A DNA stretch of 5,900 nucleotides, from NCBI GenBank assembly GCA_030753015.1, contig JASMDC010000075.1, positions 1 through 5,900 of the forward strand, given 5' to 3'. The position numbers were made by a program, and so were the translations under genes. Shown here one piece after another: positions 2,739-5,900 of this stretch (position 1 is the stretch's first letter; each line of letters begins with the position of its first letter). The notes under the pieces were generated by a model that had not been told where the DNA came from, did no database searches, and saw only the letters and a list, made by a program, of their open reading frames with translations. The stretch is from Candidatus Undinarchaeales archaeon (GTDB taxonomy: Archaea; SpSt-1190; JASMDC01).

Positions 2739-3359
2739 CTACTGCTCGGGTCTCGGACCGAAGCCGATGGGCGAGACATCACCCAGCTCTTCCCACTCGA
2801 TGTGGACGCTGGATGCCGTGATCTTCTCATCGTGGAGCATGCTCTGCCTCGCGAACTCCTCGAGGGTCGCCTCGTTCTTGTCGGCCAGGAAGCTCTCGTA
2901 CGCATCCACGACCTCGTCGGGGAACTGGCCCTCCACCGAGTACGCAGTGATGGGTGGGACGTCCTTGTCCGGGCCCACCAGTGATGTTGCGTAGTCGCGT
3001 ACGGGCATCAGGTCAAGGGTGTAGAGCGAGGCAGCATCGGCCTCTAGGTCCGTCGTGATGTCGACGGTGCCGTGGACGGGACCTTTCATCTTGCCGGACG
3101 GCTCGTAGGCGCTCACTGCAACCTCGTGGTGCATGGTCATCTTCCCGTACTGTCCGGGGATGGCGTCGAGGGCTACGTCGAGCTTCTTGCTCTCCCCGCC
3201 GCTCGTATAGGACAAGCAGGTGAGCTGCTTGTCGGCCGAGTAGTCCTTTGACATCCCGGGGACCGTCATGGTAGTCTGGTAGGGGCCTTCGCCGTTCTGG
3301 CGCACGGCCATGAGCATCATGCTGTCGGTCTGGATGATACCTGTGTATTCGAGCTCCAT
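2739..3359 (-). CDS. Unknown-family protein, paralogue A
   Basis: I do not recognise this 206-aa family. It is clearly a paralogue of the next gene (3459-4112): the first 35 residues share about 28 identities, beginning MELEYTGIIQTDSMMLM, then VRQ, G-x-GPY and PG. Later shared blocks are YTSG, GP(V/I)HGT(V/L)D, LDL-x-PV, LVGP, (V/I)EG-x-x-PDEV-x-DAY, and near the C terminus H-x-EWEE-x-GD-x-S-x-IGF. The pattern of alternating hydrophobic and polar residues suggests a mostly beta fold, with one helix around the PDEV-x-DAY block. It is acidic, with no signal peptide, membrane span or metal-binding cysteine cluster, so probably a soluble cytoplasmic protein. The start is ATG, with AGGTGA ending 6 nt upstream and its own TATA box. 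No enzyme motif is visible. Confidence 0.85.
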   Translation of the reverse strand: MELEYTGIIQTDSMMLMAVRQNGEGPYQTTMTVPGMSKDYSADKQLTCLSYTSGGESKKLDVALDAIPGQYGKMTMHHEVAVSAYEPSGKMKGPVHGTVDITTDLEADAASLYTLDLMPVRDYATSLVGPDKDVPPITAYSVEGQFPDEVVDAYESFLADKNEATLEEFARQSMLHDEKITASSVHIEWEELGDVSPIGFGPRPEQ

Positions 3360-3365
3360 TGGTCT

Positions 3366-3371
3366 TCACCT
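3366..3371 (-). promoter_or_regulatory. AGGTGA ribosome-binding site of paralogue A
   Basis: AGGTGA on the minus strand, 6 nt before the ATG, is a good archaeal Shine-Dalgarno site and fixes the start at 3359. Paralogue B has nothing as good at the same place. Confidence 0.7.
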
Positions 3372-3380
3372 ATAGAGATG

Positions 3381-3408
3381 GCGCCTCGATGTCCGGATTT
3401 TAAAGGTT
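3381..3408 (-). promoter_or_regulatory. Promoter of paralogue A: TATA box plus GAGGCGC
   Basis: On the minus strand AACCTTTAAAAT (3397-3408) is a BRE/TATA-like box. It predicts a start near 3377 and a leader of about 18 nt. GAGGCGC (3381-3387) follows after exactly 9 nt. The same two blocks with the same 9-nt gap lie before paralogue B, so this unit was kept after duplication. GAGGCGC sits between the TATA box and the predicted start, where a bound protein could block transcription; that role is inference. Confidence 0.6.
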
Positions 3409-3431
3409 GTCTTGGGTCAACTACAATTACT

Positions 3432-3447
3432 CCGCCCGAACGGACGG
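3432..3447 (-). terminator. GC-rich hairpin after paralogue B
   Basis: Just past the stop of paralogue B, CCGTCCG and CGGGCGG form a 7-bp stem with one G-T pair and a 2-nt TT gap (in practice a 4-nt loop). No strong T-run follows, only GTAATTG. It could end transcription from paralogue B before the promoter of paralogue A. The call rests on shape and position only. Confidence 0.3.
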
Positions 3448-3458
3448 GATGCGCCAAT

Positions 3459-4112
3459 TCATGCTTCAGGCTGGAATCCGATGCTCGACGCGTCCCCCTG
3501 CTCCTCCCACTCGAGGTGGAGGCCGGAGAGCGCGATGCGTCCACGGTGGAGGTCGAGGGCTTCTATGAGGGTCTCGACGCTCGATGGCGAGCGTGTGCGG
3601 ACGACGTCCGAGTAGGCATCGGAGACCTCGTCAGGCATGACACCCTCGATGCGCAGCGAGCGCACGGGCCCCGTCAGACCATCGACGTACGGGCCGACGA
3701 GCCGCTGGGCGACGTACTCATCGTCACGGGCGAGCTCTATTACGGGGGTCAGATCAAGCTCCATGTGCGTCCCGTCGCCGTACCCTTCCGGCGCTGTCGC
3801 CTCAACGTCGAGAGTGCCATGGATAGGGCCCAGGACGCGTCCTGATGCATGATCGTAGGCGTCAGCGGTCACCGACTGGTGGACCGTCGCCCGCTCGTAG
3901 AAGGGCTCGAGGAACCGGCCAGGGTCCATGGAAATGATGTGCTTCTCGTCACCGGAAGTGTAGCCCACGGCCGTGGCCGGCCGGATGCTCTCGTACGAGT
4001 AGCCGGCCCCCGGTATGCTCATGCTGGTATGGTAGGGACCATCCCCTGCCTGTCGCACCGACATGAGCATCATGCTGTCGGTCTGTATGATTCCGGTGTA
4101 TTCGAGCTCCAC
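3459..4112 (-). CDS. Unknown-family protein, paralogue B
   Basis: A 217-aa paralogue of the gene at 2739-3359, of unknown function. The N-terminal 35 residues and the C-terminal H-x-EWEE-x-GD-x-S-x-IGF block are highly similar, while the middle (about residues 38-75 and 105-150) has diverged and carries small length changes. The DNA is also alike at the 5' end: a 24-bp block at 4062-4085 is identical to 3309-3332, and 16 bp at 4096-4111 match 3343-3358. The start codon is GTG where A has ATG, judged from the exact protein alignment. No clear ribosome-binding site is present (only GGTCGA nearby), so translation may be weaker or leader-independent. No signal peptide, membrane segment or catalytic motif is visible. 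It lies 99 bp from A and has its own promoter, so it is a tandem duplicate rather than an operon partner. Confidence 0.85.
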   Translation of the reverse strand: MELEYTGIIQTDSMMLMSVRQAGDGPYHTSMSIPGAGYSYESIRPATAVGYTSGDEKHIISMDPGRFLEPFYERATVHQSVTADAYDHASGRVLGPIHGTLDVEATAPEGYGDGTHMELDLTPVIELARDDEYVAQRLVGPYVDGLTGPVRSLRIEGVMPDEVSDAYSDVVRTRSPSSVETLIEALDLHRGRIALSGLHLEWEEQGDASSIGFQPEA

Positions 4113-4129: not shown

Positions 4130-4157
4130 GCGCCTCCGGGAGGCCATTATATAGGTT
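4130..4157 (-). promoter_or_regulatory. Promoter of paralogue B: TATA box plus GAGGCGC
   Basis: AACCTATATAAT on the minus strand (4146-4157) is the clearest TATA box in the window. It predicts a start near 4126 and a leader of about 14 nt before the GTG. GAGGCGC (4130-4136) follows after 9 nt, matching paralogue A. The box lies just downstream of the phosphatase stop, so paralogue B need not rely on read-through. Confidence 0.65.
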
Positions 4158-4168
4158 CCCTTGGGCGT

Positions 4169-4969
4169 TCAGTGGACGATCGCGAGCAGCTTATTATGGA
4201 TCCGGCCGTTGGAGGCGAGGACAGGGCCGTTCCGAGGATAGTACGCGTTCCCTGCTAGGTCCGTGACCCGGCCACCCGCCTCCTCTATTAGGAGCTGGCC
4301 GACGGCAGTGTCCCACGGGCTAAGGTTGGCCGTCCAGTAGGCGTCCAGGCGGCCCCGGGCGACGTACGCCAAGGCAAGTGCCGCCGAGCCCATCACACGA
4401 ACGGACCTGACCGAGCGGCCGACACGAGGGAACCCGCTGAAATGTCCGGTCCGTCCACGGAGGAGCGCGTAATGGATCTCGGTGGCCACGACGCTATCAG
4501 CGAGGTTCTTGCACTTCGATACGGAGATCGACTTACCGTTGAGCTGTGCGCCATCGCTGCGGACCGCGGTGAACAGCTCGTCCCGGAAAGGATCGAGGAT
4601 GGCCCCGGCGACGACCTTGCTGTCGCGAGCGGCTGCCACCGACACGCAGCAGAACGGGATGCCGTTGACGTAGTTGGTGGTCCCGTCTATGGGATCGATT
4701 AGCCACACGGTCCCATCGCATGATCTCCAGTCTAAGTGCTCATCCGACTCCTCGCCCAGGATCGCGTGGTCGGGGAACGCCTCGAGCACATGCCCGACGA
4801 CGGTCTCCTGACATTGCAGGTCCACGTCGGACACGAGCTCCTTGAACGAGCTCTTCTCGTGGAACGAGAAGTCGCCCTCGAACGAAGAACGCATGATGGA
4901 GCCTGCGAGACGGGCCGCCTCGGCTGCCACGTCGCACAACCGGTGGAGTTCCGATACATCGTCGGTCAT
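4169..4969 (-). CDS. Inositol monophosphatase-family phosphatase
   Basis: A Mg2+-dependent sugar-phosphatase of the inositol monophosphatase / archaeal fructose-1,6-bisphosphatase superfamily, 266 aa from the chosen start, the usual family length. All metal-site motifs are intact: E44 with SDVD (D48, D50), GEES (E73), WLIDPIDGTTNYVNGIPF (D92, D95 and the phosphate-binding GTT), and the late SPWDTAVG (D220) followed by EEAGG. Family knowledge allows myo-inositol phosphate (lipid headgroups, solutes), fructose-1,6-bisphosphate (gluconeogenesis) or related substrates; archaeal members are often dual, and the sequence does not decide. The start at 4969 is preferred over an in-frame ATG at 5011 because the TATA box at 5022-5032 puts transcription start near 5002, after that upstream ATG, and homology begins after 4969. 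GTGA lies 4 nt before the chosen ATG. The gene is probably transcribed alone and looks intact and housekeeping. Confidence 0.93.
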   Translation of the reverse strand: MTDDVSELHRLCDVAAEAARLAGSIMRSSFEGDFSFHEKSSFKELVSDVDLQCQETVVGHVLEAFPDHAILGEESDEHLDWRSCDGTVWLIDPIDGTTNYVNGIPFCCVSVAAARDSKVVAGAILDPFRDELFTAVRSDGAQLNGKSISVSKCKNLADSVVATEIHYALLRGRTGHFSGFPRVGRSVRSVRVMGSAALALAYVARGRLDAYWTANLSPWDTAVGQLLIEEAGGRVTDLAGNAYYPRNGPVLASNGRIHNKLLAIVH

Positions 4970-5021
4970 GATGTCACGTCCTTCCCGGCCCGGAATACCT
5001 GGACAGGCCAAGGACCAACTT

Positions 5022-5032
5022 CTCTTAAACCT
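5022..5032 (-). promoter_or_regulatory. TATA box of the phosphatase gene
   Basis: AGGTTTAAGAG on the minus strand, centred near 5027, predicts a start near 5002 and a leader of about 33 nt to the ATG at 4969. It overlaps the last codon of the broken DUF1016 frame, which suggests that the tail of that frame is ordinary upstream DNA rather than selected coding sequence. Confidence 0.5.
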
Positions 5033-5618
5033 ATGCCCACCGGGTAGTGTCGTCGTGACATCCTCCCGAGACTAAACAGGCTGTCCGACAATTCATAGTT
5101 TCTACAGCTTCAAGGCCACCGAACAATGTCACAGGAAGTGTGCACCCTAACTCCCATTTGTGTGAGGTTCTTCGCACAAAGAGAAAGGGGCCCCAGGGAA
5201 GGCATGCAATTGGATTCGGCAGGATTAACCGCTCTAATTGTGCCACAGGTTGTGGCACAATTTCATTAGCACCCCCGTATGCGCAATAGAAAGCCTTCAT
5301 CCGCTTCAGGTTCCGAGCGGAAAAACCTTTGATACCGGGAAACGTGGCCCGGACGTCCGCAGAAAGACGGTCGATGACGCGCGCCCCCCACCCCTCCTCG
5401 CGCTGGCGATTCAGGATGCACCGGCCGATCTCCCAGTAGAGGAGAACTAACTTCCTGTTGACCGAAACGCTCGCCCTCGTCCGGGCGTCACGGATACGTT
5501 CCTTCAGGTCCGCGAGCAGTCGGCCGTATCCATCGGGCAGGATCGCGGGACCGGTCGGTGAAGAATGCTCCCGGCGGGCCACGGATCCCGTCCCATCTCG
5601 TGTCATACCATCCGTCAT
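5031..5618 (-). CDS. DUF1016 (YhcG-type) N-terminal fragment, nuclease domain lost; probable pseudogene
   Basis: Residues 31-128 of this 195-aa frame match the DUF1016 N-terminal domain: YGRLLADLKERIRDAR, then NRKLVLLYWEIGR (54-66), GWGARVIDRLSADVR (76-90), FPGIKGFSARNLKRMKAFY (93-111) and IVPQPVAQL (120-128). Full-length relatives run about 330-380 aa and end in a PD-(D/E)xK nuclease domain, which is missing here. After L128 the sequence stops resembling the family, apart from an LPWG at 140-143 that normally follows QL directly. The last ~50 residues look unselected and run into the phosphatase promoter. The break coincides with a 12-bp inverted repeat. The first 25-30 residues are unlike relatives, so the true start may be M5 or later. 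There is no TATA box in the 66 bp before the gene. It could still yield a small DNA-binding fragment, but a decaying gene is more likely. Confidence 0.75.
   Translation of the reverse strand: MTDGMTRDGTGSVARREHSSPTGPAILPDGYGRLLADLKERIRDARTRASVSVNRKLVLLYWEIGRCILNRQREEGWGARVIDRLSADVRATFPGIKGFSARNLKRMKAFYCAYGGANEIVPQPVAQLERLILPNPIACLPWGPFLFVRRTSHKWELGCTLPVTLFGGLEAVETMNCRTACLVSGGCHDDTTRWA
5157..5180. repeat. 9-bp inverted repeat with 6-nt loop
   Basis: TTTGTGTGA and TCGCACAAA pair over 9 positions with one G-T wobble around the loop GGTTCT. It lies in the non-homologous tail after the DUF1016 fragment. Its TTGTG...CACAA core resembles the larger inverted repeat at 5236-5262. Confidence 0.4.
5236..5262. 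repeat. Perfect 12-bp inverted repeat with 3-nt loop
   Basis: AATTGTGCCACA, loop GGT, TGTGGCACAATT: all 12 positions pair. It falls exactly over the codons for the conserved EIVPQPVAQL motif of the DUF1016 fragment, and homology to that family ends at its left edge. It may be a by-product of codon choice, a recombination or deletion hot spot, or a protein-binding site. Confidence 0.7.
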
Positions 5619-5673: not shown

Positions 5674-5800
5674 GTGAACTACCCCTAGCTGACGCAAGGG
5701 GCTTCCCGCTTCAACGCTGTTTCCAGCTCCACGGGCGCATCGGGTGGTCCCCACCCTGAGCGAGCCTGAATGTTGATGGCAGCGTTCAGGTCGCGGTCTA
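5674..5800 (-). ncRNA. Possible omega RNA from the tnpB 3' end
   Basis: In IS200/IS605 elements the TnpB guide RNA overlaps the tnpB 3' end and stops at the right end, with the guide taken from flanking DNA. Two stems fit here: GGGTGG/CCACCC with a 3-nt loop (5742-5756) and CCCCT/AGGGG with a 10-nt loop (5682-5701). If so, the guide would begin GCGACGGACAACCCC just beyond 5674. The 5' limit given is a guess. Confidence 0.3.
5682..5701 (-). repeat. Right-end hairpin of the TnpB element
   Basis: CCCCT (5682-5686) pairs with AGGGG (5697-5701) around a 10-nt loop. The tnpB stop codon, TAG, overlaps one arm. TAGTTCAC follows a few nucleotides 3' on the tnpB strand, which is the layout expected for a transposase-recognised hairpin near the cleavage site. 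Confidence 0.45.
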
Positions 5801-5900
5801 TCGTCAGGCCGCAGTTCCAACAGTCATGTACCCGAACCGACAGGTCTTTCTTCACCAGCATGCCGCACCGGCTGCATATCTGCGAGGTGTTCTTCGGGTC
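5685..5900 (-). CDS. tnpB: TnpB RNA-guided endonuclease, C-terminal part (5' end outside window)
   Basis: The last 71 residues of an IS200/IS605 TnpB (OrfB). The visible part begins [13 protein letters not shown] and holds the zinc ribbon: cysteines C-x2-C in ICSRCG and C-x2-C in CWNCG, 14 residues apart. It is followed by [12 protein letters not shown], which carries the third RuvC catalytic aspartate in the DRD-x-NAA motif. A short tail of about 25 residues ends at TAG (5685-5687). In this family the protein is a single-strand-guided DNA nuclease that helps retain the element. The frame is unbroken in the window; the first two RuvC acidic residues and the N-terminal domain cannot be checked here. 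The gene reads toward the DUF1016 fragment, leaving 66 bp between them. Confidence 0.92.

Follow-up and report, generated by a model that had tools for sequence, protein, structure and literature searches.

The locus and its contig

The window (the whole stretch of DNA analysed, 5,900 nucleotides) is the complete 5.9-kb contig C90, one of 117 contigs of a 3.85-Mb archaeal metagenome assembly with an estimated completeness of 98.9% and contamination of 5.0%. It holds two tandem paralogues, A and B, whose relative C lies elsewhere in the genome:

151-1293 and 1518-2714, plus strand: two AAA_14/DUF4143 ATPase genes (Pfam)
2739-3359, minus strand: paralogue B, 206 aa, ATG start, pI 4.3
3398-3416, minus strand: putative promoter element of B, CCCAAGACAACCTTTAAAA, whose end lies 38 nt upstream of the ATG
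3432-3447, minus strand: short G+C hairpin in the A-B gap, CCGTCCGTTCGGGCGG
3459-4112, minus strand: paralogue A, 217 aa, GTG start, pI 4.5
4147-4165, minus strand: putative promoter element of A, CCCAAGGGAACCTATATAA, whose end lies 34 nt upstream of the GTG
4169-5011, minus strand: inositol monophosphatase-family gene (Pfam), upstream of A, with A's promoter in the gap
5031-5618, minus strand: DUF1016_N gene (PADLOC PDC-S02), adjoining the TnpB fragment
5685-5900 (contig end), minus strand: TnpB zinc-ribbon fragment (Pfam)
C24:54959-55564: copy C, 201 aa, the third, dispersed copy

The TnpB fragment and the DUF1016_N gene beside it suggest that a mobile element is where the assembly broke. 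The hairpin at 3432-3447 is a possible end of the A transcript; folding of the whole intergenic region, which was no stabler than its shuffles, gave no sign of a structured RNA between A and B. At 3.85 Mb the genome compares with 0.6-1.1 Mb in the nine class mates examined, and the assembly searched yielded no match to an archaeal 16S rRNA gene; size and missing match together point to either a genuine expansion or a composite bin.

A tandem pair and a dispersed third copy

From the sequence alone, an earlier reading had described two tandem paralogues with conserved ends and widely differing middles, and we confirm the pair: both reading frames are present, and a BLASTP alignment shows homology over the whole length of the proteins (223 columns, 43% identity; E = 3e-51 as a single comparison). 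Coding signals support both as genuine genes (GC3 of 0.78-0.85 versus GC2 of 0.40-0.46), and a Shine-Dalgarno-like AGGTGA directly precedes the ATG of B. The high identity claimed for the start is borne out, with 78% over the first 36 columns versus about 43% outside them (Fisher p = 2e-4), and the DNA does show the 24-bp identical block near the 5' ends, CAGACCGACAGCATGATGCTCATG. The last 35 columns are 49% identical. The middle is indeed diverged (34%), but it is not unrelated: the two proteins can be aligned along all of it, and its indels leave the frame intact.

Copy C, on a 77-kb contig, is 36-38% identical to the pair, and its N-terminal block again stands out (58-67% identical to A and B, versus 31% elsewhere), such that these 36 residues are 58-78% identical in all three pairwise comparisons versus 31-43% for the remainder. 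The C-terminal block, H-x-EW...GD...GF, is kept in C too, indicating that the conserved ends proposed for this unrecognised family extend to its dispersed member. An acidic pI (4.1-4.5) and no more than one cysteine are common to all three proteins. Since A and B resemble each other more than either resembles C, the tandem duplication probably followed the split from C. A fourth profile match, on contig C84 (E = 0.02), was rejected as chance: it runs antisense to a large gene that, judged by eye, we take to be CdhA (the CO dehydrogenase/acetyl-CoA synthase alpha subunit), and it contains an internal stop.

At fourfold synonymous sites A and B agree in 19 of 50 cases (approximately 38%), near the expectation from base composition. 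This near-saturation indicates that the A/B duplication is old and that the amino acids have been held by purifying selection. With three such copies in the genome, the family has the two or more selected copies expected of lineage-specific orphan paralogues. It also bears on recent gene conversion between the neighbours, which the sequence-only reading had itself named as the process that might account for the similar ends, and to which the 24-bp block lends some weight. Fourfold sites are no more alike within the N-terminal block (6 of 13 codons) than elsewhere (13 of 37; p = 0.52), and the dispersed copy C bears the same conserved block, so that conversion is not needed; we consider it highly improbable, with room for a very short tract at most. 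Selection on the protein is the best explanation of the conserved start.

Relatives, neighbours and a possible mobile origin

Searches of Pfam-A, NCBIfam, PHROG and PADLOC returned no family match above the curated cut-offs for the A, B and C proteins (the best Pfam result, ATR1_N, was sub-threshold at E = 0.11), and PDB sequences gave no match for the A/B family. The initial impression that no known motif is present thus held, and no characterised family in the databases searched claims these proteins. Profile searches of the other genomes of the class and 394 archaeal genomes (about 400) found no relative; a repeat of the archaeal search drew almost the same genome sample as the first. A scan of about 85,000 species genomes was likewise negative, with a shorter reach because it was built on short peptide patterns, as were searches of viral, phage and plasmid collections. 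Across these sets no homologue appeared outside the lineage, and as far as the searches reach the family is restricted to one lineage, as expected of a lineage-specific orphan family. Profile comparison gave no link to the other multi-copy families of the genome, including an orphan pair on contig C11 (see below), and a literature search found nothing relevant.

A survey of relatives for copy number and neighbours, which the sequence-only reading had proposed, was partly productive: it yielded the third copy on contig C24, and the A/B and C loci have in common no neighbour suggestive of a partner, with the exception of nearby AAA_14-type ATPase genes (151-1293 and 1518-2714 in the window, L007:7843-9075 by copy C), a co-occurrence that may be due to chance. 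The inositol monophosphatase gene is missing at copy C and is accordingly counted as a non-conserved neighbour of the family.

The pair might instead belong to an integrated mobile element or to its defence cargo, given that AAA_14/DUF4143 ATPases and a DUF1016 gene share this short contig (by Pfam and PADLOC) and that the contig terminates in a TnpB fragment. We consider this improbable. The viral, phage and plasmid sets hold no relative, an inositol monophosphatase gene adjoins A, copy C sits among housekeeping genes (for example, a Cdc48-type ATPase), and A, B and C agree with chromosomal genes in G+C content and codon pattern. The Cdc48-type ATPase itself scores best against a class mate (62%).

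A promoter element common to A, B, C and other orphan genes

What the sequence-only reading missed is that each gene has a separate promoter, whose element recurs before other orphan genes. A, B and C each have their own TATA/BRE-like promoter, with an A-rich BRE and a TATA-like box shortly upstream of the start, as predicted for archaeal promoters. The strict pattern CCCAAGNNAANCTNTANAA, which we drew by eye from a comparison of these promoters, occurs at four places in 3.85 Mb (A, B, C and C11:8084-8102) and at none in the reversed control. At the fourth site it precedes an orphan gene, D (minus strand, ATG near C11:8053). Next to D lies its paralogue E, which is 37% identical to it and has a similar element. 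The 19 bp are identical before A and D, two genes whose proteins are unrelated by profile comparison.

A looser pattern, CCCRAGNNMANNTWTAWWA with at most one mismatch, has 25 sites versus 2 in the reversed control; it derives from A-E after they had been seen and was loosened to take in E. At most of these sites a reading frame starts 18-42 nt downstream, with a few lacking such a start, and the element is found in none of the 261 genes of 22 stretches that were not picked for the motif. Proteins encoded behind it tend to lack a Pfam match above cut-off (16 of 18 scanned, versus 7 of 19 control genes called by a simple codon score; p = 0.002, with sites lacking a nearby reading frame excluded), and the tendency persists when the five pattern-defining genes A-E are removed (p = 0.012). 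We regard this enrichment as suggestive, not proven. Sharing a rare element that mostly precedes genes of unknown family, A, B and C look like members of a lineage-specific co-regulated set. On the other hand, strong promoters in this organism could simply look like this: control genes aligned on their TATA boxes also have an A-rich BRE and a degree of C enrichment at -12.

Among the genes behind the element, those at L044, L051, L054 and L058 resemble carbon-nitrogen hydrolases of the nitrilase type; L044, L051 and L054 were scanned, and L051 alone scores above the Pfam cut-off.

Tandem paralogues across the genome

In a 0.92-Mb sample (stretches partly chosen around motif sites) the 646 called genes include 39 adjacent paralogue pairs, and many of the paired proteins are small and belong to no obvious family. 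Tandem pairs are therefore frequent in this genome, and A/B is one case of a common pattern. Conserved ends, tried as a general rule for such pairs, did not hold: the start is raised in only some of them, such as the D/E and MEIDFYEV pairs on contig C11. Two further clusters were observed. Directly adjoining D/E is a trio of tandem paralogues (C11, locus L040, 4513-6863, minus strand; about 230 aa, about 50% identical), neither of whose two scanned members has a Pfam match. Locus L093 (C40:45001-65000) carries five tandem, possibly ligase-like proteins with the motif GHSVGLEKEFYVV. Next to them lie two tandem carbon-nitrogen hydrolase-like genes, and the promoter element, with one mismatch, is present at one of these two.

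The frequency of tandem pairs, with the weaker A-rich BRE and C enrichment before ordinary TATA boxes, fits a plainer account, in which A and B are lineage-specific tandem copies of an ordinary kind, retained for dosage while doing the same job, and the promoter they share is just the strong form used by this organism, copied with the gene. This account deserves serious consideration, if at somewhat less than even odds. It has difficulty with the extent of divergence, because about 57% of residues are different between A and B, beyond what simple dosage would lead one to expect; with the identical 19 bp before the unrelated gene D, which duplication of A cannot explain; and with the absence of the looser element from all the unselected genes.

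Structure models

Structure prediction, which had also been proposed for the pair, was run on B and C and gave low-confidence models (AlphaFold, three-sequence input; pLDDT of 41 for B and 53 for C). In the model of C the C-terminal part (about residues 130-190) reaches a pLDDT of 66-84 and has a predicted strand-helix-helix-strand layout. Foldseek, run with these low-confidence models against the PDB and viral structures, returned nothing at E <= 0.001. A second structural comparison ranked eS1 chains at the top (Z of 3.1-4.1 over about 132 residues, rmsd about 6.5), raising the idea that A, B and C are diverged paralogues of an eS1 (S3Ae)-fold ribosomal protein recruited to another job. We think this very improbable: the Z-scores fall under the noise level of the tool and come from the pLDDT 53 model, Foldseek gives eS1 no support, a Pfam match to eS1 (PF01015) is absent, and profile-profile alignment (hhalign) with 29 archaeal eS1-locus sequences, one row of which is possibly in the wrong reading frame, gave a probability near 0, no higher than the reversed alignment did.

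Interpretation

The reading that we favour, at a probability of roughly 0.4, is that A, B and C are old, lineage-restricted duplicates kept by selection, which form an oligomer with a fixed core and a variable middle and are co-expressed with other orphan genes. Each family member is probably a soluble oligomer subunit. The three proteins would be soluble and cytosolic; the conserved blocks at their N and C termini would together make up a shared core by which the copies join in homo- or hetero-oligomers, while their variable middles would provide for a different partner or ligand in each case. We infer this division into core and variable middle from the pattern of conservation. A dedicated transcription factor, or a variant TFB/TBP, may bind the shared element and thereby switch the orphan genes on together.

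An extension of this reading, which we think unlikely, is that an archaeal lineage with an enlarged genome maintains a dedicated regulon of orphan, often tandem proteins, marked by an extended promoter with its own factor, and that A, B and C build a lineage-specific assembly within it. Of the new results, the promoter element offers the most useful lead. Functions are lacking for the majority of genes in uncultured archaea, and ways of approaching such genes are rare. Should the element prove to be a genuine regulatory site, it would unite orphan genes that are otherwise unrelated in a single testable set, and might show what purpose the lineage's enlarged genome serves; should it not, A, B and C are an ordinary orphan family.

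Comparison with known systems

With eS1 (PF01015) the family shares a weak structural resemblance, seen in a low-confidence model, and it differs in that a sequence-profile relation is absent. The element resembles the archaeal TATA/BRE promoter in its A-rich BRE, its TATA-like box and its position 18-42 nt before most called starts; it differs in an extra CCCRAG block upstream of the BRE and in the rarity of its strict form, which has just four occurrences genome-wide. Lineage-specific orphan paralogous families are a general phenomenon in archaea, and A, B and C are like them in having no homologues outside the lineage, in the small size of the proteins and in local duplication. They differ in that, in this genome, separate families seem to share one 19-bp promoter element.
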